From NCBI GenBank assembly GCA_014804085.1, contig JAAVAM010000025.1:1-9952 (forward strand): DNA of 9,952 nt, written 5' to 3'. Positions within the stretch are counted from its first letter, which is position 1. The number at the start of each line of letters is the position of its first letter. Source of the stretch: Treponema sp. Lineage in GTDB: Bacteria > Spirochaetota > Spirochaetia > Treponematales > Treponemataceae. Below are positions 1 through 9,952 of the stretch, piece after piece. The translations under genes were made by a program, and so were the position numbers. Below the pieces are notes generated by a model. The model did no database searches, was not told the origin of the DNA, and was given only the letters and a program-made list of their open reading frames with translations.

Positions 1-384
1 GTCAAGGCAGGCGGCGTAGCGTTCACGGGTGGCGGGGTCTGCGAGGTAGGCGCGGCAGAGAACGCGGTTCTTGCGCACAATGCCCAAAATCCGCACGATG
101 TGCGCTGAAAGCTGCTTTTCAAAGTCAGCGTTCGAGGCGAATTTCATCGAGCGCGATATTGGCTCGTTCAGTTTTGCGAAACGCTCAGTCAGCACGTTCT
201 CCGCAAAAGGCACGACGCCCGAAAAATGCGCGTAGAACGTGCTCCTGTGCACGTCAGCCGTGTCGCACAGTTCGTGCACGGTAATGTCGCTCAGCCGTTT
301 CGTGCCGTCCGTCAAAATTGCGACCAGCGCGGCGCACAGTCTCTCTTGCGTTTTGCGGGTGCGGGCGTTTCCATAGGTGTTCAT
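1..384 (-). CDS. TetR/AcrR-family transcriptional regulator, 3' end cut by window edge
   Basis: Reading the minus strand from ATG at 384 gives 128 codons without a stop, running off the left edge. Residues about 10-56 match the TetR N-terminal DNA-binding domain: a first helix (KTQERLCAALVAIL), then a helix-turn-helix at about 33-52 with the family-typical ending STFYAHF (residues 48-54). The remaining visible part, which should be the ligand or dimer domain, is helical but not diagnostic, and its C-terminus is missing. The gene starts 16 nt after the leuS stop in the same direction, so it is probably cotranscribed with leuS. No good Shine-Dalgarno precedes the ATG; a mini-ORF whose TAA overlaps this ATG may supply translational coupling. 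TetR proteins usually repress nearby transporter or stress genes; the target here is unknown. The family call is firm, the role is not. Confidence 0.88.
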   Translation of the reverse strand, partial: MNTYGNARTRKTQERLCAALVAILTDGTKRLSDITVHELCDTADVHRSTFYAHFSGVVPFAENVLTERFAKLNEPISRSMKFASNADFEKQLSAHIVRILGIVRKNRVLCRAYLADPATRERYAACLD

Positions 385-404
385 TATGAAACCGCGCCGC
401 TCAT
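384..404 (-). other. 7-codon mini-ORF bridging leuS and the TetR gene
   Basis: On the minus strand an ATG overlaps the leuS stop (ATGA, 404-401). It opens a frame reading MSGAVS and then TAA, whose last base is the first base of the TetR start codon (TAATG at 386-382). The small frame therefore overlaps both genes and could pass ribosomes from leuS to the regulator. The overlaps are read directly; a coupling role is inferred and may be chance. Confidence 0.3.
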
Positions 405-2947
405 TTCACCACGATGTTCACCAGTTTGTCCGGCACGACGATCACTTTGACGATTTCCTTGCCGTCCGTGTATTTCTGCGCGTCCTTGTTCTGGCGGGCG
501 AGCGTTTCCAGCGTGTCTTTGTCCGTTCCGGCGGCAACGTCGAACCGGGCGCGCACTTTGCCGTTGACGCTCACGACGATGGTCTTTGTGTCTTCCGTAG
601 CGTAGCGTTCGTCAAAGGTCGGCCACGGCTCGTAGGCGCACGTGTCCGTGTTGCCCAGTTTCTGCCACAGTTCCTCGCCGAGGTGCGGCGCGTAAGCCGA
701 AAGCATCAGCACAAATCCCGACCACATCGCCTTGGGCAGCGCGGCGACTTTACTTGCCTCGTTGATAAAAATCATCATCTGGCTGATCGCCACGTTGAAG
801 TCGAGGTTGCCCGTGTCCTGGGTCACTTTTTTGACGGTCTTGGCGTAGGTCTTGCGCAGCGCGGCGAGTTCGTTGTCCAGCTTCCCGGTGATGTCGGTGT
901 CGGTCATCGGCTTTTCGCTGATTGCCCAGATTTTGTCCAGGAAGCGGTTCACGCCGATCAGCCCCTGCGTGTTCCACGGCTTGGAGACGGTGAGCGGTCC
1001 CATGAACATCTCGTACATGCGCACGGAATCCGCGCCGTATTTCTGTATCATCTCGTCGGGGTTCACCACGTTCTTGAGCGACTTTGACATCTTGGCGATG
1101 ATGCGCTCCAGCGGCTCGTGCGTGTCCTTGTCCTCGAACACGCCGGGCGCAGTCTCCACGGCTTGGTCGGTGGGGACGAGCGACTTTGCCTTGTTCTGGA
1201 ACGCAAAGCTCGTGATCATGCCCTGATTGATCAGCCGCTTGAACGGCTCGTTCGTGCTTACGATGCCGAGGTCGTACAGCACTTTGTGCCAGAATCGGCT
1301 GTAGAGCAGGTGCAGCACGGCATGTTCCGCGCCGCCCACGTACAGGTTGACAGGCATCCAGTATCTTTCAATGTCGCGGTCAACCAGTGCCGTGTCGTTG
1401 TGCGGGTCGAGGTAGCGCAAATAATACCAGCACGAGCCGGCCCATTGCGGCATGGTGTTCGTCTCGCGGCGGGCGTTGCCGCCGCACTGCGGGCACGTGC
1501 AGTTCACCCAGTCGGTGATGCCGGCGAGCGGGCTTTCTCCCGTGCCGGTCGGCTGGTAAGTCTTGACGTTCGGCAGCTCAAGCGGCAGCTCGTTTTCGGG
1601 GACGGGAACGGTGCCGCATTGGGGGCAGTGTACGAGCGGAATCGGCTCGCCCCAGTACCGCTGGCGGCTGAACACCCAGTCGCGCAGCTTGTAGTTGACG
1701 GCTTTCCGGCCGATGCCCTTTTCCGTGAGGAAACCGAGCATCTTCGCGATCGCGTCCTTTTTGTTCAGCCCGTCCAAAAATCCCGAATGCACGTGGATGC
1801 CGTCCTCCGTCCATGCCTGCTGCTGCACGTCGCACCCGCTCTTGAGGACTTCGACAATCGGCAGACCGAACTTCTTGGCGAATTCCCAGTCGCGCGTGTC
1901 GTGCGCGGGCACTGCCATAATCGCGCCCGTCCCGTAGGAGACAAGCACGTAGTCCGCAATCCACACGGGAATGCGCGCGCCGTTGACGGGATTGATCGCG
2001 TAGCTCCCGCTGAACACGCCGGTCTTGTCCTTTGCAAGGTCGGTGCGCTCAAGGTCGGATTTTTTTGCGGCCTCGTCCACGTATGCGCGCACGGCGGCGC
2101 GCTGCTCTGCCGTGGTGAGCGCGTCAACCAGCGGATGTTCGGGGGAGACGACCATGTAGGTCGCGCCGAACAGCGTGTCGCAGCGCGTGGTGTAGACGGT
2201 CAGCTTGTTGTCGGTGGCGTTCCCGTCGCTGCCGGCAATGAAGAAATCGACCTCCGCGCCCTCCGAGCGGCCGATCCAGTTTTTCTGCATCAGCTTGACG
2301 CTCTCCGGCCAGTCAAGCCCGTCAAGGTCCTCAAGCAGCCGGTCCGCGTAGGCGGTGATTTTCAGAATCCACTGGCGGATCGTCTTGTGCGTCACTTCCG
2401 CGCCGCAGCGGTCGCAGTGTCCTTCCTTGACCTCCTCGTTCGCAAGCCCGGTGAGGCAGGACGGACACCAGTTGATCGGCGTCTCCGCCTCGTAGGCAAG
2501 CCCGCGCTTGTACAGCTGCAAGAAAATCCATTGCGTCCACTTGTAATAGTCGGGCGTGCAGGTGCGCACTTCGCGGTCCCAGTCGTAGGAAAAGCCGAGC
2601 GCCTTGATCTGCTCGGTAAAATGTGTGATGTTCTTGAGCGTGGTCTCGGCGGGATGCGTGCCCGTCTTGATCGCATAGTTCTCGGCGGGCAGCCCGAACG
2701 CGTCGTAGCCCATCGGGTGCAGCACGTTGTAGCCGTTCATGCGCAGGTAGCGGCAGTAGATGTCCGTGGCCGTGTAGCCCTCCGGATGCCCCACATGCAG
2801 CCCCGCCCCGCTCGGATACGGGAACATGTCGAGCACGTAGGCGCGCCTGTCCTTGGGAAACCGCGGATCTTCGGTGACGCGGAACGTCTTGTGTTCCGCC
2901 CAATATGCCTGCCATTTTGGCTCAATGTGCTGAAAAGGATACGCCAT
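401..2947 (-). CDS. leuS: Leucine--tRNA ligase (leucyl-tRNA synthetase)
   Basis: This 848-residue cytosolic class I synthetase charges tRNA-Leu with leucine; the length is normal for bacterial LeuRS. The signature HVGHP (51-55) sits in the nucleotide-binding fold, and KMSKS (619-623) is intact. The CP1 editing domain, which hydrolyses mischarged tRNA, has TTRCDT at 253-258 and PAHD with the editing aspartate D350. E. coli has Pro where this protein has Cys256. Zinc-type CxxC pairs occur at 161/164 and 178/181, with more at 441/444 and around 485/488. The C-terminal anticodon-binding part ends in a typical tail. The frame stays open for 243 codons further upstream to 3676, but that part is the tandem array, not protein with any LeuRS similarity. 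ATG 2947 gives the family-typical N-terminus ([13 protein letters not shown]) and lies 9 nt from a good -10 box. It is probably the first gene of a unit with the TetR regulator. Confidence 0.97.
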
Positions 2948-2956
2948 AATGACACG

Positions 2957-2985
2957 AGTATAGCATTTTTTCCCGGTTATAGGAA
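2957..2985 (-). promoter_or_regulatory. Promoter of leuS, predicted near-leaderless
   Basis: On the minus strand an extended -10 reads TGC TATACT (TATACT at 2962-2957, TG element just upstream). The -35 at 2985-2980 is poor (TTCCTA, 17-bp spacer), which the TGn extension could offset. Only 9 nt separate the -10 from the ATG at 2947, so the start site would fall about 0-3 nt before the ATG. No Shine-Dalgarno is present. Confidence 0.6.
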
Positions 2986-3012
2986 GATGCGGCAGGAAAA
3001 GCCGCCTGGAAC

Positions 3013-3660
3013 GACGCACGTCCGCACTCGTTTGCCGCACCGAATTCGTGTTTGTCGGGTGCTGGCAAGGGATTTGTTGCACCAAATTCGTACTTGTCGA
3101 ACACGGACAAGGAATTTGTTGCGCCAAATTTGTATTCGTCGGTTGCTGACAGGGCATTTGTTGCGCCAAATTCGTACTTGTCGGTTGCTGGCAAGGGATT
3201 TGTTGTACCAAATTCGTACTTGTCGGTTGCTGGCAACGAATTTGTTGCGCCAAATTCGTACTTGTCGAGTGCGGGCAAGGAATTTGTTGCGTCAAATTCG
3301 TATTTGTCGGTTGCTGGCAACGAATTTGTTGTACAAAATTCGTATTTGTCGAGTGCTGGCAAGAAATTTGTTGTGCAAAATTTGTATTTGTCGAATGCTG
3401 TGGACGTGTCGGAGGGCTCTGGCGGCGTTTCGTCGGTTGCTGTGAGCGCGTCGGAGGCCTCCGACAGCACTTTGTCGGCTGCTGTGGACGTGTCGGAGAC
3501 CTCGGACGGCATTTTGTCGGTTGCGGTGAACGCGTCGGATGCCTCTGACGGCGTTTTGTCGGCTGCTGTGGGCGCGTCGGAGACCTCGGACAGCACTTTG
3601 TCGGTTGCGGTGAACGTGTCGGAGACCTCGGACAGCATGTTGTCGAATGCTGTGAAAGAA
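3013..3660. repeat. 42-bp tandem repeat array with two unit families
   Basis: Fourteen full units of exactly 42 bp run from 3055 to 3642 with no insertion or deletion. A degenerate unit precedes them (3013-3054) and a partial one follows (3643-about 3660). Units usually start TCGGTTGCTG and end TTG. The first eight (3055-3390) have a centre of GAATTTG, a 6-nt spacer, then CAAATTC; the unit at 3223 has 9-bp arms ACGAATTTG and CAAATTCGT, plus a second small hairpin GTTGC-TG-GCAAC. The last six (3391-3642) have a different centre; in the unit at 3433 it is the perfect palindrome GTCGGAGGCCTCCGAC (3450-3465), flanked by TGCTGT and ACAGCA. Both dyads are centred on the same place in the unit (between bases 25 and 26). 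Long frames are open on both strands because 42 is divisible by 3 and the unit lacks stops; I see no codon-like substitution pattern. It accounts for most of the gene-free stretch 2948-3832. Confidence 0.95.
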
Positions 3661-3684
3661 TTTCCACGCATTTCACGTCCTCTA

Positions 3685-3742
3685 CGGCGCGCCCTGCGCC
3701 GCCGTCATCTGCGTTAGCAGGTTCTTAGGGCAGCGCCCTAAG
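3685..3742. repeat. Cluster of short intergenic hairpins (REP-like)
   Basis: Three dyads follow one another: CGGCGC/GCGCCG round a 5-nt loop (3685-3701), CTGC/GCAG round GTTA (3709-3720), and CTTAGGGC/GCCCTAAG round a 3-nt loop (3724-3742, 8 bp perfect). None is followed by a T tract. Back-to-back intergenic palindromes of this kind resemble REP/BIME-type elements. Whether they recur elsewhere in this genome cannot be seen here. Confidence 0.6.
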
Positions 3743-3765
3743 CGGTGCTGGAAGAGAGTGGGGGT

Positions 3766-3816
3766 TTGGGGGAGAGAGAGACCACGCTTCCGAGTAGAGG
3801 TCTCTCTCTCCCCCAA
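3766..3816. repeat. Long perfect hairpin downstream of the MATE gene
   Basis: An 18-bp perfect inverted repeat (3766-3783 with 3799-3816) encloses a 15-nt loop. The arms are purine-rich on one side (GGGGG then AGAGAGAG) and pyrimidine-rich on the other. Outer GCGGTG (3742-3747) and CACCGC (3825-3830) can also pair. It lies 17 nt after the MATE stop codon, so it could protect the 3' end of that mRNA or help end transcription, but there is no U tract. It may also be part of a dispersed repeat with the neighbouring hairpins. Confidence 0.75.
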
Positions 3817-3832
3817 GATGTTCCCACCGCTT

Positions 3833-5245
3833 TCAAGCGGGGCGACGCGCTGGCACCGTCCGTTCCGGCATTCTGAGCCACTTGCCGCTGAACCAGTAGG
3901 CGAGGAACAGCACCGACGTGGCGCACCAGGTGATGGGATAGCAGGCGAGGACGGCGGTAATCGTGTTCATGCGCGGCACGGCGGTGAACAGCCAGGCAAG
4001 GCGCAGCGCGCACACGCCGAACAGCGTGATGACCATCGGCACAAAGCTGTCGCCCGCGCCGCGGATAATGCCCGACAGCACCTCAATCGCCACGTAGCTG
4101 ATCCACCACGGCGCGAGGAAGCGCAGGATCACCATGCCGCCCGCGATCACGTCCGGGTCGGTGGCGAACAGGCGGAACACGTACTGCCCCGTGAACAGGA
4201 ACGCCACCGAGCAGAACGCGGTCATGGCGAGCGTCATCAGCATGGCCTGCCACATGCAGCGTCTGAGCCGGTCGTATTTCTGCGCGCCGTAGTTCTGCCC
4301 GCTGAACGTGGTGACGGCAACGCCCATCGTGCTGACCATCGTCCAGAACACCGCGTCGATCTTGCCGAACGCCGCCCAGGACGCGACCGTCGCCGTGCCG
4401 AACGCGTTGATCGCCGTCTGGATAATCATGTTGCTCATGCAGTAGAACGTGGACTGGATGCCGCCCGGCAGTCCGAGCCGCAGCATCTTCGCGAGGATAT
4501 GCGGCGTAATGCCCAGCCGCCGCACGCGCAGCCGCACCGCCGTCCTTGCGCGCGCGAGCAGCACGAGCGAGATGACCATGCTCTCCGCCTGCGACGCGAC
4601 CGTCGCCCATGCCACGCCCGCCACGCCCCAGCGGAAGCGCACCACGAACAGCAGGTCAAGCGCGATGTTCGTGCACACCGCCGCAATCAGGACGTACAGC
4701 GGCTTTTTCGCGTCCCCGGTGGCGCGCATGATGCTCGAAGCCATGTTGTACAGGAACATCGGCACCATACTCACGAAAAAAATGTTCAGGTAGGTGAGCG
4801 ACAGCCCCATGATGTCCGCCGGAGTCTTGGTGACGCGCAGCACCCACGGCGTGGCGAGCAGCCCGCCTATGGTCATCGCCAGCCCGCCGAAAAAGCACAT
4901 CGTGAGCGCGGTATGCACGCTCCGCCCCGTCTCTCCCTCATCGCGCGCGCCAAAGAACTGCGCGATGATGATGCCCGCGCCGCTTGTCAGCCCCACGAAA
5001 AAGCTGATGAGCAGGTTCAGGTAGACCGCCGTGCCACCGCCCACCGCCGCGAGCGCCTCCTTGCCCACGAACCGCCCCACGATGATCGCGTCCACCGTGT
5101 TGTACAGCTGCTGGAACAGCGTTCCCATGAGAATCGGAAAGAAAAAGCGGAGCAGACTCTTCCAAATGACCCCCTCGGTCATCTGGTTTTCCGCCGGCGC
5201 GGAACGGTATGCCTGCGCGCGCCGTGACGACGACATGAATTTCAT
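3833..5245 (-). CDS. MATE family multidrug/Na+ (or H+) antiporter
   Basis: This 470-residue inner-membrane transporter exports drugs or other cations in exchange for Na+ or H+. The length and about twelve hydrophobic segments fit the NorM/DinF-type MATE fold. The opening after residue 22 (WKSLLRFFFPILMGTLFQQ) is typical, as is the early aspartate in YNTVDAIIVGRF (48-59). The two-fold internal repeat is visible: AQFFGARDEGETGR (95-108) mirrors GQNYGAQKYDRLRR (316-329), and RATGDAKKP (174-182) mirrors RGAGDSFVP (395-403). ATG 5245 is chosen because a -10 box lies 8 nt upstream. Met4 (5236) and Met22 (5182) are possible; Met22 is where most homologues begin, but it has only a weak ribosome site. 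The gene has its own promoter after the lipoprotein terminator. The substrate cannot be told from sequence. Confidence 0.94.
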   Translation of the reverse strand: MKFMSSSRRAQAYRSAPAENQMTEGVIWKSLLRFFFPILMGTLFQQLYNTVDAIIVGRFVGKEALAAVGGGTAVYLNLLISFFVGLTSGAGIIIAQFFGARDEGETGRSVHTALTMCFFGGLAMTIGGLLATPWVLRVTKTPADIMGLSLTYLNIFFVSMVPMFLYNMASSIMRATGDAKKPLYVLIAAVCTNIALDLLFVVRFRWGVAGVAWATVASQAESMVISLVLLARARTAVRLRVRRLGITPHILAKMLRLGLPGGIQSTFYCMSNMIIQTAINAFGTATVASWAAFGKIDAVFWTMVSTMGVAVTTFSGQNYGAQKYDRLRRCMWQAMLMTLAMTAFCSVAFLFTGQYVFRLFATDPDVIAGGMVILRFLAPWWISYVAIEVLSGIIRGAGDSFVPMVITLFGVCALRLAWLFTAVPRMNTITAVLACYPITWCATSVLFLAYWFSGKWLRMPERTVPARRPA

Positions 5246-5253
5246 AAGAAATG

Positions 5254-5281
5254 AGTATACCGTTTTTCGGCAACGTGTGCT
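5254..5281 (-). promoter_or_regulatory. Promoter of the MATE gene, predicted leaderless
   Basis: On the minus strand TATACT (5259-5254) stands 8 nt before ATG 5245. The -35 is weak (AGCACA at 5281-5276, 16-bp spacer). A start site 7-8 nt after the -10 would coincide with the ATG. No Shine-Dalgarno lies between. Confidence 0.55.
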
Positions 5282-5289
5282 ACCGGGCG

Positions 5290-5327
5290 AAAAACAAAAC
5301 CGCCGCCCACTCGCGGGGGCGGCGGTT
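5290..5327 (-). terminator. Rho-independent terminator of the lipoprotein gene
   Basis: Read on the minus strand, an 11-bp perfect GC-rich stem (AACCGCCGCCC with GGGCGGCGGTT, 5327-5298) closes an 8-nt loop and runs straight into a T-rich tract (TTGTTTTT). It lies about 40 nt after the lipoprotein stop codon and insulates the MATE promoter downstream. Confidence 0.93.
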
Positions 5328-5366
5328 GCACCGGCTGTTGAAAGCGTTGCCGGTGGCTTTGAACGT

Positions 5367-6188
5367 TTAGTTCTTGGTGAACGACACGTCCTTGAGGTAG
5401 TAGACAGAAGTGTCCGCAGGAATCTTCGTTGCTACATATTCACGCTCGCCATTTGTATAATTGAACTCATAATCATAAGTCGTTCGTTCGTCGAAGCGCT
5501 GACCGCTGCGTATGTCAGCCGGTTTTAGGTAGTATTCATAGCGCTCGTCGAGTTCTTTCAGCGACGCATTGATAGCGAAGTTGCCTTCCAACGAACCTGT
5601 CATTGCGAATGATGCTGTGCCGTAGTTGCCGTTCGTAATCTTGACCGTGCCGCCGCTTGCCAAAAGGGAGTAGTCCTTATATAACTCATCCTTGTCATTT
5701 TCCTTGCTCAAGGAGAGTCTATACGTTTTCCCGTTTGACACCTTGTTGTTGCCAACGATGTTGTTTTCGCTTGTGCTGGGCGAGCCTGTAGTGTATGACA
5801 CATCGCCAGACCATGTTATCAGTGCATAGTCGAACTCGACCTGCGTACCGCTGTCCCATTCGTTGTAGAACCAGTACGAAGTGCGTTCAACACTTGTCAC
5901 ATCACTCTCAGTCTTAAGTGTTTCTACGGTGCCGATGTAATATCCTTTGTTGTCTTTCGGCATATTGTTTGGAATTGGATTGTAATCATCCTCTGTGTAT
6001 GTAACTTTGATGTTCGTGTTTTTTGTCACCATCGTCACTTTCGTTGCCTTCGCCGTTCCGTAATTTGTGTAAGAATCTTTTATCAGCCCGCTGTGCAACG
6101 TCACGTCCAGCTCCTGCGACTCGTTCTCGCAGGACATCCACAACCCAAGGCTTGCCGCGCAAGCCAGAACCAAAAGTAATTTTTTCAT
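5367..6188 (-). CDS. Putative phase-variable lipoprotein, family not recognised
   Basis: The product has 273 residues. The N-terminus has the form of a lipoprotein signal: MKK, a hydrophobic stretch to about residue 17, then MSC with the likely lipidated Cys20. The box (LWMSC) departs from the LAGC consensus, as spirochaetal lipoboxes often do; Cys10 (LVLAC) is a less likely alternative because the hydrophobic core would be too short. The mature part is rich in Tyr, Thr, Ser, Asn and Asp/Glu and has alternating polar/hydrophobic stretches that suggest beta structure; I recognise no domain. ATG 6188 is set by GAGGAGG six nt upstream; a TTG at 6203 in the same frame would overlap that site. Base composition is visibly more AT-rich than in the neighbouring genes, which may mean acquisition or fast surface-protein evolution. 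It has its own promoter with a G8 tract and its own terminator. Confidence 0.8.
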   Translation of the reverse strand: MKKLLLVLACAASLGLWMSCENESQELDVTLHSGLIKDSYTNYGTAKATKVTMVTKNTNIKVTYTEDDYNPIPNNMPKDNKGYYIGTVETLKTESDVTSVERTSYWFYNEWDSGTQVEFDYALITWSGDVSYTTGSPSTSENNIVGNNKVSNGKTYRLSLSKENDKDELYKDYSLLASGGTVKITNGNYGTASFAMTGSLEGNFAINASLKELDERYEYYLKPADIRSGQRFDERTTYDYEFNYTNGEREYVATKIPADTSVYYLKDVSFTKN

Positions 6189-6194
6189 ATATTG

Positions 6195-6201
6195 CCTCCT
6201 C
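6195..6201 (-). promoter_or_regulatory. Ribosome binding site fixing the lipoprotein start
   Basis: GAGGAGG on the minus strand ends six nt before ATG 6188. It rules out the in-frame upstream TTG at 6203, which overlaps it. Confidence 0.9.
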
Positions 6202-6220
6202 AAGCAAAAAATGATGAGGT

Positions 6221-6248
6221 ATAATACCCCCCCCGTTTATCGTGTCAA
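6221..6248 (-). promoter_or_regulatory. Lipoprotein promoter with G8 tract in the spacer
   Basis: On the minus strand a perfect -35 TTGACA (6248-6243) is followed by a 16-bp spacer and the -10 TATTAT (6226-6221). The eight bases of the spacer next to the -10 are all G (C8 on the plus strand, 6227-6234). Gain or loss of one G would change the spacer to 17 or 15 bp. A less likely -10, TATACC, would give a 19-bp spacer. A start site near 6214 would leave a leader of about 25 nt containing the ribosome site. Confidence 0.82.
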
Positions 6249-6252
6249 GGGG

Positions 6253-6289
6253 TTTTTGAAAAAAATTGCGTTTTTTTGCATTTTTTTTT
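6253..6289. promoter_or_regulatory. Phased A/T tracts upstream of the lipoprotein promoter
   Basis: T5 (6253-6257), A7 (6259-6265), T7 (6271-6277) and T9 (6281-6289) lie directly upstream of the minus-strand -35. The last three centres are about 11-12 bp apart, close to one helical turn. Such tracts can bend DNA or act as an UP element; this role is inferred. T9 is itself a slippage-prone homopolymer. Confidence 0.45.
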
Positions 6290-6347
6290 CGCGGATTTCA
6301 CGCCCGCCCGCGCCGCCCCTGCGTTCCTATGCATTCGGCGGGTGTCA

Positions 6348-6376
6348 TTGCAGTATTTTTTGCTTCGTGGTATTCT
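6348..6376 (+). promoter_or_regulatory. Promoter of the antitoxin gene
   Basis: TTGCAG (6348-6353), a 17-bp spacer and TATTCT (6371-6376). The start site near 6383 leaves a leader of about 27 nt that holds GGGAGG at 6396-6401, eight nt before the ATG. No clear operator palindrome was seen, though YefM proteins usually repress their own promoter. Confidence 0.7.
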
Positions 6377-6409
6377 GTGGACAACGCTGTTTTTCGGGAG
6401 GACGGGGCG

Positions 6410-6661
6410 ATGAACGTTATGGACGCAGTGCAGGTGCAGGAAGACCTTTGCAAAGTAATATCGCAGGTCAACGAGCACTCGCAGCCGGTTACCCTGACGA
6501 CCGACGGCGGAAAGAATGCCGTCCTTGTCGGCGAAGACGACTGGAACGCCATTCAGGAGACGCTCTACCTGAACGCAATTCCCGGAATGGCGCGCTCCCT
6601 TCTGAACGGCAAAGAAACGCCGCTGTCGTCATGCATCCCCGAATCCGAAGTCGCCTGGTAA
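6410..6661 (+). CDS. YefM/Phd-family antitoxin, now without its toxin
   Basis: This 83-residue protein matches the YefM/Phd type II antitoxin fold: an N-terminal dimer and DNA-binding part (NVMDAVQVQEDLCKVISQVN), the central strand pattern PVTLTTDGGKNAVLVGEDDW (26-45), and the family signature NAIQETLYL (46-54), followed by a tail that would wrap the toxin. In working systems it neutralises a YoeB ribosome-dependent mRNase and represses the operon. ATG 6410 is chosen from the GGGAGG ribosome site 8 nt upstream and the promoter at 6348-6376; an in-frame upstream start at 6266 lies before the promoter. Six nt after the stop begins the remnant of the toxin gene, so the antitoxin is an orphan here. 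It might still act as a regulator or protect against a homologous toxin elsewhere. Confidence 0.9.
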   Translation: MNVMDAVQVQEDLCKVISQVNEHSQPVTLTTDGGKNAVLVGEDDWNAIQETLYLNAIPGMARSLLNGKETPLSSCIPESEVAW

Positions 6662-6667
6662 CCGGCG

Positions 6668-6728
6668 ATGTACCGCGTCTGAAAGAACAGTGAAGATTAT
6701 CAGAATGTGGTCTCATTATGGCGACTGA
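6668..6728 (+). pseudogene. Remnant of a YoeB-type toxin gene, internal part deleted
   Basis: Six nt after the antitoxin stop, ATG at 6668 reads MYRV and then a TGA. One base out of frame, from about 6678, the sequence reads SERTVKIIRMWSHYGD and a stop at 6726-6728. This closely matches the conserved C-terminal strand of YoeB/Txe toxins, in which a motif of the form VKI(L/I)RMW(T/S)HY ends the protein; the last tyrosine is a catalytic-region residue. MYxV is likewise a plausible YoeB start. Family members have about 80-90 residues, so roughly 65 codons appear to be missing between the two ends. The catalytic core (the Glu and Arg region) is gone, so no active toxin can be made. The family match is from memory of the motif, not a search. 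Confidence 0.8.
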
Positions 6729-6756
6729 CGGCTCGCTCCCGCGCCCCCGCTGACCC

Positions 6757-6785
6757 TTGCGGAAAACGCCGCGCTGTCATATACT
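6757..6785 (+). promoter_or_regulatory. Promoter of the topoisomerase gene, predicted leaderless
   Basis: TTGCGG (6757-6762), a 17-bp spacer and TATACT (6780-6785). The ATG at 6792 is only 6 nt after the -10, so the usual start site is the A of the ATG. Nothing like a Shine-Dalgarno lies upstream. Confidence 0.75.
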
Positions 6786-6791
6786 AGTCCT

Positions 6792-8984
6792 ATGGGTGGA
6801 ACAGAGCGTGGGGCAACCGCCGCAGCGGCGGCGGAAAAGCCGTCGGGAGCGGCGGCAAAAACGGCGAGACAGCCGGCAAAGACAGTGAAGCAATCGACAA
6901 CGGCAGCGGCACAATCGGCAAAGACAGAAAAACAAGTGGCAACGACGGCGAAGCGGGCGGCGGCCAAGAAACCGGCGGCGGGCATGGGGGACGACGGCAC
7001 GTTCCGTGCCTGGGCAAACGCGAAGACCGTGGCAAAGCCCTCGGCGCGCACGGCGGTGGTCTCGGCGACGCAGAAAATGGGCGGAAAGAAGAGCCTCGCC
7101 GAATCGGAGCAGAAGCTCGCCGCGGCAAAGGCGACAGACCCCGGCGCGCGCGTACCGAAAAAGGCCGCCGCCGCATACACCGACGACAAAATCCAGCACC
7201 TCGACGCATTGGAACACATCCGCCTGCGTTCGGGCATGTACATCGGGCGGCTCGGCGACGGCTCCAACCAGAACGACGGCATTTATATCCTGCTCAAAGA
7301 AATCATCGACAACGCCGTGGACGAGTTCATCATGGGATTCGGGCAGCGAATCGACGTGGAAATCAAGGACAACCGTGTGAAAGTGCGCGACTACGGGCGC
7401 GGCATCCCGCTCGGCAAGGTGGTGGAGTGCGTCTCCCAGATCAACACGGGCGGCAAGTACAACGACGACGTGTTCCAGTTCAGCGTGGGCATGAACGGCG
7501 TGGGCACCAAGGCGGTCAACGCGCTGTCGTCCCACTTCCGCGTCATCTCCATACGCGGCGGCAAATGCACCGAGGCAGTCTTTGCGCAGGGCAAGCTCAC
7601 CGCGCAGCGCAGCGGCCCGCTCAAGCAGCCGATCCCCCCGGACGGCACGTTCTTCGAGTTCGTCCCCGACGAGGCGATTTTCGGCGCGTACTCGTTCAAC
7701 ATGGAATTCGTGGAGAAACGGATCTGGAATTACGCCTACCTGAACGCCGGGCTGACCCTGCGCCTGAACGGCAAGGATTTCGTGAGCAAGAACGGCCTGC
7801 TCGACCTGCTCCAGCACGAGATCGCCGAGGAATCGCTCTATGCCGTGGGCAGCTACGTGGGCGAGCATATCCAGTTCGCGTTCACGCACACCAACGCCTA
7901 CGGCGAGCAGTATTTTTCGTTCGTCAACGGGCAGTACACGAGCGACGGCGGCACACACCTGACCGCATTCAAGGAAGGATTCATCAAGGGCGTGAACGAC
8001 TTTTTCCAGGCGAGCTTCAAGTCCGAGGACGTGCGCGACGGCATGACGGCGGCAGTGCTCGTCAAGGTGAAAGACCCCGTATTCGAGAGCCAGACCAAGA
8101 ACAAACTGGGCAACACCGACATCCGCGCCTGGATCGCCGCGGAAGTCCAGGGCGGGCTGGACACCTGGCTGCACAAGAACCCGCAGGCGGCGGAGCGGCT
8201 GCGCCAGAAAATCGAGGCGAACGAGAAGCTCCGCACCGAGCTTTCCAGCGTCAAGAAGCAGGCAAAGGAGAACGCCAAGAAGCTGAGCATCCGCATACCC
8301 AAGCTCAAGGACTGCCGCTATTTCGTGCAGGACGGCGCAAAGGGCGCGGACAGCATGATCTTCATCACCGAGGGCGACTCCGCGTCCGGCACGATGACCC
8401 ACTCGCGCAACGCCGACAGCCAGGCCATATTCAGCCTGCGCGGCAAGCCGGAGAACATGTACGGCAAGAAACAGAGCGACATCTACAAGAACGACGAGCT
8501 GTACCAGCTGATGATGGCGCTCGGCATTGAGTCGGGCATCGAGCACCTCAAGTACGCCAAGATCGTCATCGCCACCGACGCGGACAACGACGGCTTCCAT
8601 ATCCGCAACCTCGTCCTCACGTTCTTCCTCGGCTACTTTGAGGAGCTGGTCACCGGCGGGCGCGTGTTCATCTTGGAGACCCCGCTGTTTCGCGTGCGCA
8701 ACAAAAAGGACAACATCTACTGCTACACCGAAGCCGAGCGCGACGCCGCCCTCAGAAAGCTGGGCGCGGGCGCGGAAGTGAGCCGGTTCAAGGGCTTGGG
8801 CGAGATCAGCCCCGACGAATTCCGCCAGTTCATCACCCCCGAAACCATGCACCTGACCCCCGTGGAAGTGAGCCAGCTCAAAGTCATTCCGCAGCTGCTG
8901 TCGTTCTACATGGGCAAGAACACCCCGGAACGCCGCCGCTTCATCGAAGCGCACCTGCTGACCAACGCCGAAATCGACGTGTAG
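6792..8984 (+). CDS. parE: DNA topoisomerase IV subunit B (ParE; GyrB-like) with N-terminal extension
   Basis: This 730-residue ATPase subunit of a type IIA topoisomerase would act with ParC (not in the window) to decatenate and relax chromosomes. The GHKL ATPase is complete: KEIIDNAVDE (169-178), DYGRGIP (200-206) and GMNGVGTKAVNALS (233-246). The QTKNKLG loop is at 434-440. The TOPRIM metal site has EGDSASG (527-533) and DADNDG (596-601), followed by RFKGLGE (665-671). The enzymatic core from about residue 129 (YTDDKIQHLDALEHI) is about 600 residues, the size of the compact Bacteroidetes/spirochaete-type ParE; GyrB remains possible. Residues 1-128 are a low-complexity Ala/Lys/Thr-rich basic extension, partly built of a 7-residue repeat. 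Met65 and Met96 are alternative starts, but the promoter places the start at 6792. No ParC follows; the next feature is a 21-bp repeat array. Confidence 0.9.
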   Translation: MGGTERGATAAAAAEKPSGAAAKTARQPAKTVKQSTTAAAQSAKTEKQVATTAKRAAAKKPAAGMGDDGTFRAWANAKTVAKPSARTAVVSATQKMGGKKSLAESEQKLAAAKATDPGARVPKKAAAAYTDDKIQHLDALEHIRLRSGMYIGRLGDGSNQNDGIYILLKEIIDNAVDEFIMGFGQRIDVEIKDNRVKVRDYGRGIPLGKVVECVSQINTGGKYNDDVFQFSVGMNGVGTKAVNALSSHFRVISIRGGKCTEAVFAQGKLTAQRSGPLKQPIPPDGTFFEFVPDEAIFGAYSFNMEFVEKRIWNYAYLNAGLTLRLNGKDFVSKNGLLDLLQHEIAEESLYAVGSYVGEHIQFAFTHTNAYGEQYFSFVNGQYTSDGGTHLTAFKEGFIKGVNDFFQASFKSEDVRDGMTAAVLVKVKDPVFESQTKNKLGNTDIRAWIAAEVQGGLDTWLHKNPQAAERLRQKIEANEKLRTELSSVKKQAKENAKKLSIRIPKLKDCRYFVQDGAKGADSMIFITEGDSASGTMTHSRNADSQAIFSLRGKPENMYGKKQSDIYKNDELYQLMMALGIESGIEHLKYAKIVIATDADNDGFHIRNLVLTFFLGYFEELVTGGRVFILETPLFRVRNKKDNIYCYTEAERDAALRKLGAGAEVSRFKGLGEISPDEFRQFITPETMHLTPVEVSQLKVIPQLLSFYMGKNTPERRRFIEAHLLTNAEIDV
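6855..6959 (+). repeat. 21-bp coding tandem repeat in the parE extension
   Basis: Codons 22-56 of the topoisomerase fall into five 7-residue units (AKTARQP, AKTVKQS, TTAAAQS, AKTEKQV, ATTAKRA). The DNA is alike too, units 2 and 4 sharing GCAAAGACAG at their start and units 2 and 3 ending CAATCG. The period is exactly 21 bp with no indels, the same as the array after the gene, though the sequence differs. Confidence 0.7.
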
Positions 8985-9000
8985 CGACCGCCGCCCCAGT

Positions 9001-9017
9001 CGGCCGGAATGCGGCCG
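9001..9017. repeat. Small hairpin after the topoisomerase stop codon
   Basis: CGGCCG (9001-9006), loop GAATG, CGGCCG (9012-9017), a 6-bp stem 16 nt after the stop. There is no T tract, so termination is doubtful. It overlaps the first, degenerate unit of the 21-bp array. Confidence 0.5.
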
Positions 9018-9364
9018 GACAACGTGGAATGATGCTCGGGAGACATGGAATGAGTGCCGGGCAACGTGGAATGACACTCGGGAGACGTGGAATGAGTGCC
9101 GGGAGACGTGGAATGAGTGCCGGGAGACGTGGAATGAGTGCCGGGAGACGTGGAATGACACTCGGGAGACATAGAATGGCACTCGGGCGACGTGGAATGA
9201 GTGCCGGGAGACATGGAATGAGTGCCGGGAGACGTGGAATGGCACTCGGACGACGTGGAATGAGTGCCGGGCAACGTGGAATGACACTCGGACAACGTGG
9301 AATGAGTGCCGGGCAACGTGGAATAGCACTCGGGCGACATGGAATGAGTGCCGGCCGGCATAAA
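9009..9364. repeat. 21-bp tandem repeat array with two interspersed unit types
   Basis: After a 20-nt degenerate first unit (9009-9028) come sixteen units of exactly 21 bp (9029-9364). Each starts ATG (one ATA) and most end ACGTGGA or ACATGGA. Nine units carry the core GAGTGCC after AT; seven carry the other core (ACACTC, GGCACTC, AGCACTC or the variant ATGCTC). GGCACTC is the exact reverse complement of GAGTGCC, so neighbouring units of opposite type can pair. The last unit ends in the 12-bp palindrome TGCCGGCCGGCA (9349-9360). All reading frames stay open in parts because 21 is divisible by 3, but no credible protein is encoded. It fills most of the gene-free stretch 8985-9485. Confidence 0.95.
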
Positions 9365-9399
9365 ACGGCATTGTTTGGGGCAAAAACGGCGTTCCCTGC

Positions 9400-9428
9400 T
9401 TGCGCCGGCGGCATTCCTGTCGTATACT
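9400..9428 (+). promoter_or_regulatory. Promoter of the small coiled-coil gene
   Basis: TTGCGC (9400-9405), a 17-bp spacer and TATACT (9423-9428). The start site near 9435 leaves a leader of about 50 nt ending in AGGAGG (9475-9480), five nt before ATG 9486. Unlike the topoisomerase promoter, this one has a normal leader and a strong ribosome site. Confidence 0.75.
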
Positions 9429-9485
9429 GAAAGGACGGTCGGCGCGCGGTTGCGTTCCCGGCCGGTGCGTAAATAGGAGGTATCT

Positions 9486-9797
9486 ATGGCACAGTCATTT
9501 GCACAGCGGGTGAGCGAGGGGCGGCTGATGGCGGCGGGAATCCGCGCCCATGCCGAGGAGCTGAAAGGCGTGAGCCTGGGCGAGGAGCAGGCGGCCGGCA
9601 TTGAGGCGATGGTCGCCGCCTTGCAGGAGATTGACACCCGGCAGGAAAAACTGAAGGCGGAGCTGAAGACCTGCACCGCTGACCTGTCCGCAAAGGGCAA
9701 GGCACTGTCCGACGCGGTTGCCGACGCAAAAAAGCGCGTCAAGTTGGCAATCCCCGCGGCGGGCTGGCAGGAATTCGGCATCTCCGCCAAGAAATAG
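9486..9797 (+). CDS. Small Ala/Lys/Glu-rich coiled-coil protein, function unknown
   Basis: The 103-residue product has no signal peptide or membrane segment, so it is probably cytoplasmic. From about residue 20 to 85 it is almost entirely helix-forming, rich in Ala, Glu, Lys and Leu, with spacing that suggests a coiled coil (EIDTRQEKLKAEL, 48-60). The C-terminus breaks the helix at AIPAAGWQEFGISAKK (88-103). A Trp-x-x-Phe-Gly ending after a helical hairpin resembles small hypothetical proteins I associate with treponemes, but I cannot name a family. The start is well set by AGGAGG and a good promoter. A DUF3791-like gene begins 28 nt after the stop and may be cotranscribed. Confidence 0.8.
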   Translation: MAQSFAQRVSEGRLMAAGIRAHAEELKGVSLGEEQAAGIEAMVAALQEIDTRQEKLKAELKTCTADLSAKGKALSDAVADAKKRVKLAIPAAGWQEFGISAKK

Positions 9798-9825
9798 GCG
9801 CGGGGACGGCGGCGGGGGTACGGGA

Positions 9826-9952
9826 ATGTCGGTGCTTTCTTTCAAGACGTACTGTATTGAGTCGTATGCGGAGCATACGGGGCAGCCGTCGTCTGCCGTC
9901 TTTGCGGCGTTCGACCGGTCGCGCCTGCTCGCGCACCTTGCGGACGACTACG
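9826..9952 (+). CDS. DUF3791-like protein, N-terminal part only
   Basis: ATG 9826 opens a frame of 42 codons to the right edge. The visible part (MSVLSFKTYCIESYAEHTG, then PSSAVFAAF and LLAHLADDY) resembles the start of DUF3791 proteins, which are small helical proteins of about 70-80 residues beginning with a CIE-Y motif and usually continuing into a DYxVLH-type segment. DUF3791 genes often sit next to DUF3990 genes in toxin-antitoxin-like or mobile clusters; the neighbour on the right cannot be seen. The ribosome site is weak (GGGGG about 9 nt upstream). The domain call is from memory of the motif and is moderate. Confidence 0.65.
   Translation, partial: MSVLSFKTYCIESYAEHTGQPSSAVFAAFDRSRLLAHLADDY

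Follow-up and report, generated by a model that had tools for sequence, protein, structure and literature searches.

The window analysed here is a stretch of 9,952 nucleotides (contig JAAVAM010000025.1, positions 1 to 9,952) from the 2.7-Mb Treponema sp. assembly GCA_014804085.1, which consists of 75 contigs, is 89.75% complete and contains some Ns. The locus of interest is a one-gene unit on the minus strand that encodes a predicted lipoprotein of 273 amino acids (5367-6188, with the ATG at 6188). The gene is preceded by the ribosome-binding site AGGAGG (6195-6200) and by a promoter-like site (6248-6221), and the unit is closed by a terminator-like hairpin of 11 pairs, nine of them G-C, that was located by pattern scan only (5298-5327). 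A gene for a Phd/YefM-like antitoxin (PF02604) lies divergently on the plus strand (6266-6661), and the family search revealed no toxin partner next to it. Arrays of 42-bp (and 21-bp) tandem repeats occupy positions 3043-3656, beside leuS, and 9006-9354, beyond a gyrB/parE-like gene; an Rfam scan of the window gave no family at the gathering score. The nearest named relative, an uncultured Treponema MAG (L026) with a 96% identical ParE, aligns with the window by blastn at 90-96% nucleotide identity over three main blocks. The blocks end at 5285 and restart at 6737, and the lipoprotein gene is therefore accessory, being part of a segment (5286-6736) that comprises the lipoprotein unit and the antitoxin gene and is missing from L026.

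The description of the product in the initial annotation, an unrecognised putative lipoprotein of lower GC content, stands. No Pfam or NCBIfam family matches the 273-residue product at E <= 0.001, its gene has a GC content of 46.8% versus 59.4% for the window, and the lipobox LWMSC with Cys20 is plausible by an ad hoc rule, signal peptides and lipoboxes having been assigned by a home-made procedure. Pfam matches at E <= 0.1 were stray and were discarded, as was the best hit of a PDB sequence search (E 0.09). AlphaFold2 predicts a nearly all-beta structure (mean pLDDT 77, pTM 0.70), and a PDB fold search with this model reached TM-scores of at most 0.17 among the 50 hits listed, from which no credible match was retained. 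Relatives of the lipoprotein number 35 at E <= 0.001, of which 22 were aligned, and the few that bear a name all belong to Treponema or Treponemataceae. Among 200 genomes of the genus, a full-length match occurs in the own genome only, and three short matches (an own paralog and proteins of genomes G061 and G024) are largely confined to the N-terminus. No tract was found upstream of the own paralog (L255) or of the G061 homolog. The distant homolog of G024 (L254) has an (AG)n repeat directly after TTGACA, upstream of 1501; a genus search for such repeats returned only L254 in 196 genomes, and the idea of a second general class was therefore dropped.

Read on the minus strand, positions 6248-6221 are TTGACA-CGATAAAC-GGGGGGGG-TATTAT, precisely the arrangement that had been noticed at the outset. 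The -35 box (6243-6248) agrees with the consensus in 6/6 positions and the -10 box (6221-6226) in 5/6, their use as a promoter being predicted. The 16-bp spacer is composed of a non-G part, CGATAAAC (6235-6242), and a G8 tract (6227-6234) that abuts the -10 box and is the proposed slipping element. It is the single run of at least seven G in the window on either strand. A promoter scan of the window gave four sites, a number to be compared with 2.5 expected from shuffling; the site at 6248-6221 scores 11/12 and the remaining three score 9. When the window was simulated 400 times with a first-order Markov model, TTGACA followed after 15-19 bases by a near-consensus -10 box occurred 0.01 times per window and a G8 or longer run 0.16 times, and the full motif did not appear in any of the 400.

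The initial annotation had proposed looking for other promoter tracts across the genome, and this look returned 16 promoter-type sites, the window site among them. By applying a layout pattern (TTGAC, 4-16 bases, G7, 0-6 bases, TANNNT) with the reversed pattern as a control, we obtained 18 matches in the 2.7-Mb genome versus none for the reversed pattern, and one match when C7 replaced G7. Two of the 18 lie within reading frames (L010 and L009). Downstream of the 16 promoter-type sites are 11 predicted lipoproteins, three other predicted exported proteins (one of which matches OMP_b-brl) and one bacterial sugar transferase, while no ORF begins within 300 nt of the last site. The genome contains 85 G runs of at least eight (19 G8, 51 G9 and 15 longer), an excess of G9 over G8 that base composition does not account for.

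The same layout is present in 72 of 146 genomes of the genus, with 256 matches versus 8 for the reversed pattern when the own genome is included and 238 versus 8 in the other 145 genomes; the genus and phylum totals are sums of per-genome numbers that include overlapping doubles. The number of matches per genome ranges from 0 to 18, with none in 74 of the 146. Within the phylum sample, 8 of 12 genomes from the family outside the genus match, and outside the family 40 of 216 genomes do so, with 57 matches versus 21 reversed, which is mostly near background. One genome of another family of the phylum (G184) has six matches, one of them an overlapping double, versus one reversed, for which independent origin, transfer and contamination are alternatives.

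The recurrence of the layout bears directly on chance or an assembly artefact as its source. This explanation draws on the fragmented and incomplete state of the assembly, Ns included, and on the error-prone nature of homopolymers. It is at odds with the control counts (0 reversed and 1 poly-C versus 18 matches) and with the presence of the layout in the one-contig genomes G044, G108 and G119, the two-contig genome G132 and the 2.73-Mb contig of G145, and we regard it as highly improbable. For the existence of the layout it is excluded, an exclusion that does not extend to the exact tract length at the window site.

To describe the architecture of the sites, 131 genus sites were parsed among the matches listed (256 matches), with overlapping doubles merged and the own in-frame sites L009 and L010 removed; one in-frame-looking site of genome G137, which resembles L010, was kept. 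The G run abuts TAnnnT in 117 of the 131. Among these 117 sites, the -35 box is TTGACA in 104, TATAAT is the commonest -10 box (23), the spacer measures 15-19 bp in 95, and G9 is the commonest tract length (53). The parsed sites far exceed simple chance models, with the reservation that related sites are not independent.

The genes behind the tracts are predominantly predicted to encode surface proteins. A further 29 genomes were sampled at one site each, taken as the first listed and not at random; at these sites the downstream genes encode 18 predicted lipoproteins, six other exported or membrane proteins and five proteins of neither kind. The corresponding background is 6.5% predicted lipoproteins and 9.7% other exported or membrane proteins among 433 frames from 80 parE neighbourhoods, the length limits being different (at least 150 codons for background frames and at least 70 for test frames). 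Downstream genes were also read for all 18 own sites, 12 sister sites, every distinct site of genomes G145 (11), G084 (9) and G021 (10), eight of the ten listed distinct sites of G137 and two of the five of G044. Two couples of identical sites (L113/L250 and L124/L242) were used as a single copy in the pair comparison described below and as both copies in the classification of downstream genes.

Tract length varies between otherwise similar copies of the same promoter. It differs in 14 and is equal in 13 of 27 reciprocal-best pairs, which were drawn from five genome pairs, share loci between pairs and include one pair within a reading frame. Indels amount to 10 per 301 tract columns versus 45 per 7,098 columns outside the tract (odds ratio 5.4; Fisher P 6e-5, with pairs that are not independent). 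Examples include two own paralogs with G14 (L021) and G11 (L024), the sister copy of which has G9; a lipoprotein promoter that carries G9, G10 and G8 in three genomes (L217, L228 and L235, respectively); and the loci L110 with G13 and L111 with G9. The window's own tract stands outside this comparison, because the sister genome lacks this lipoprotein gene.

These length differences weigh on a second explanation, by which the G run is a fixed regulon element, that is, a binding site or a DNA shape for a regulator or a particular sigma factor, and the surface genes would be co-regulated and not switched singly. The use of one layout on one strand before mostly one gene class agrees with such an element, and so do the prevalence of G9 as by far the commonest length and the small number of sites with a 17-bp spacer; in addition, a CRP homolog is described as acting with the tract at tpr promoters (passages of PMC7864442). 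However, a protein-binding site should accept or conserve particular bases and maintain its length, whereas the tract differs in length among close relatives and the run is pure: a nine-base run with a central interruption was found in 1 of the 146 genus genomes, a rarity that fits a slipping tract and not a protein site. We consider a fixed element unlikely.

The length of the spacer is relevant to the suggestion made at the start that G9 would give the optimal 17-bp spacer at the window site. The arithmetic of this suggestion is correct, but 17 bp is not the usual assembled state: the 16 own promoter-type sites have spacers of 16 (four sites), 18 (five), 19 (five), 21 (one) and 22 bp (one), and none of 17 bp. 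Equating G9 with the on state thus counts as arithmetic and not as evidence. In tract-free near-consensus promoters of the relatives, 17 bp is the commonest spacer length (10 of 33; reversed control 11). This leaves two possibilities: most of the own sites were assembled in a weak state that lies one or two slips from the optimum, or the optimum lies elsewhere. Compensation between tract length and the remaining spacer was considered and set aside as weak or absent (Spearman -0.03, not significant; Pearson -0.20, P 0.03; variance shuffle P 0.02).

The lack of clear compensation between the G and non-G parts is compatible with a third explanation, in which the tracts do slip and have little effect, as mutation-prone by-products of promoters or as mild tuning with no on/off switching. 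There is a precedent in vpma of Mycoplasma agalactiae, where a T tract beside the -10 box is described as having no role in switching (passages of PMC2268961). On the other hand, the tracts are enriched before predicted surface-protein genes over background, spacers are kept at 15-19 bp in 95 of the 117 abutting sites, and effects of length are described for TP0126, porA and tprL (passages of PMC7864442). Slipping of little consequence appears to us quite unlikely.

These data are best explained by phase switching via changes in spacer length, and we judge it likely that the G8 tract of the window acts as a slipped-strand promoter switch. A single site would have given this reading far less support than the layout's recurrence across the genome and the genus does. 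Points against it are the absence of 17-bp spacers among the own promoter-type sites, the weak or absent compensation, the 13 pairs of equal tract length, the tract-free upstream regions of L255 and the G061 homolog, and the vpma precedent. The homopolymer between the -35 and -10 boxes that characterizes the TP0126, porA and vlp systems is found at 6248-6221, and the length difference between otherwise similar copies that characterizes them as well is found at same-layout loci elsewhere, in the 14 of 27 pairs. By analogy with these three systems, we infer that the boxes are in use, that tract length shifts among the cells of a population and that expression depends on this length, which would make the promoter-type sites a genome-wide set of this kind.

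The closest precedent is TP0126, an OmpW homolog of T. pallidum, in which a poly-G tract between the -35 and -10 boxes sets their spacing, with 17 nt being optimal, ahead of a treponemal gene for a predicted surface protein as in the window (passages of PMC7864442). According to the same source, TP0126 is a single promoter of a pathogen tested in E. coli, whereas the present set comprises 16 promoter-type sites predicted from sequence, mostly before lipoproteins. The initial annotation had referred to the tpr promoters instead. Poly-G tracts do accompany the promoters of surface-protein genes of T. pallidum, including tprE/G/J and tprL, as in the window; in tprL, however, the tract overlaps the -10 box and spacing is unaffected, so that TP0126 is the nearer case (passages of PMC7864442). 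The window tract stops where the full TATTAT begins, and hence the overlap typical of tprL is not seen here. Passages of PMC7864442 report 7-11 Gs for tprL, 9 being the commonest, and a stronger tprL promoter in E. coli with 8 Gs than with 10. Length variants were reported for T. pallidum clones at 24 of 46 poly-G/C tracts of at least eight (passages of PMC10013896).

Outside the treponemes, porA of N. meningitidis likewise has poly-G between the boxes, and its expression drops when the spacing departs from 17 (passages of PMC7864442); unlike the set described here, porA is one porin gene, in an unrelated phylum. Promoter-spacer slippage at genes for surface (lipo)proteins is also described for vlp of Mycoplasma hyorhinis, maa2 of M. 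arthritidis and vmm of M. mycoides (passages of PMC2268961 and PMC10502178). The vlp system resembles the present one in that multiple genes each have their own tract. It differs, together with vmm, in the repeat, which is an A tract in vlp and a dinucleotide repeat in vmm versus G here (same passages), and the vlp genes form one family whereas the genes found here come from many. The window site therefore belongs to a known kind. We found no report in the open-access literature of such sites recurring throughout a genome and a genus, that is, of poly-G switching as a repeated promoter type in treponemes beyond T. pallidum. Section 6 of PMC8049484, a comparative paper, gives tract counts for T. 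ruminis, where they are few, and for others, and no promoter analysis.

In the proposed mechanism, replication slippage would add or remove Gs in the tract at 6227-6234, the changed G count would alter the 16-bp spacer between the -35 and -10 boxes, and the altered spacer would make transcription of the predicted lipoprotein gene stronger or weaker. With one tract per gene, each gene could be switched up or down independently; since every gene has its own tract, the cells of one population may differ in their mixtures of surface lipoproteins. If the promoters work as proposed, i) stochastic surface switching would be widespread in the family and not peculiar to syphilis, and ii) hundreds of promoters would be open to test with ordinary metagenome reads.

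A second class of tracts lies after gene starts. We classified 62 of the 66 G9 or longer tracts of the own genome, of which 14 are promoter-type, 24 are located after a start and 24 elsewhere, the class after a start being defined as up to about 85 codons past a start with a ribosome-binding site and including weak GTG/TTG starts. Tracts of G9-G10 were observed in or right after the signal peptides of the predicted lipoproteins L168, L182, L152, L189, L203, L205, L208 and L210. In L182, which has G9, the frame is open for 524 amino acids, to the end of the stretch; its paralog L168, which has the same signal peptide and G10, stops after 29 amino acids as assembled (own-genome contigs C23 and C13, respectively). 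Judged from the reading frames, the signal-peptide tracts are likely to form a translational class of switches beside the transcriptional one. A broader model, to which we assign an even chance, is a genome-wide contingency regulon in treponemes of this genus. Many unrelated surface lipoproteins would have a promoter type in common, each promoter resting one or two slips away from the 17-bp optimum, and G tracts within or close to the signal peptides would gate a second set of lipoproteins. If true, this model would provide thousands of surface combinations per clone in bacteria that are not known as immune-evading pathogens.

The two own matches within reading frames concern other functions. 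The first (L010; own-genome contig C10, 883-2763, minus strand) is a type I restriction specificity gene (Methylase_S) with two G9 tracts that code for glycines, through which phase-variable methylation is possible; the listed site of G137 mentioned above resembles it. The second is a VTC-domain gene whose internal tract is G9 in the own genome (L009) and G8 in the sister genome (L137), so that the two reading frames differ.
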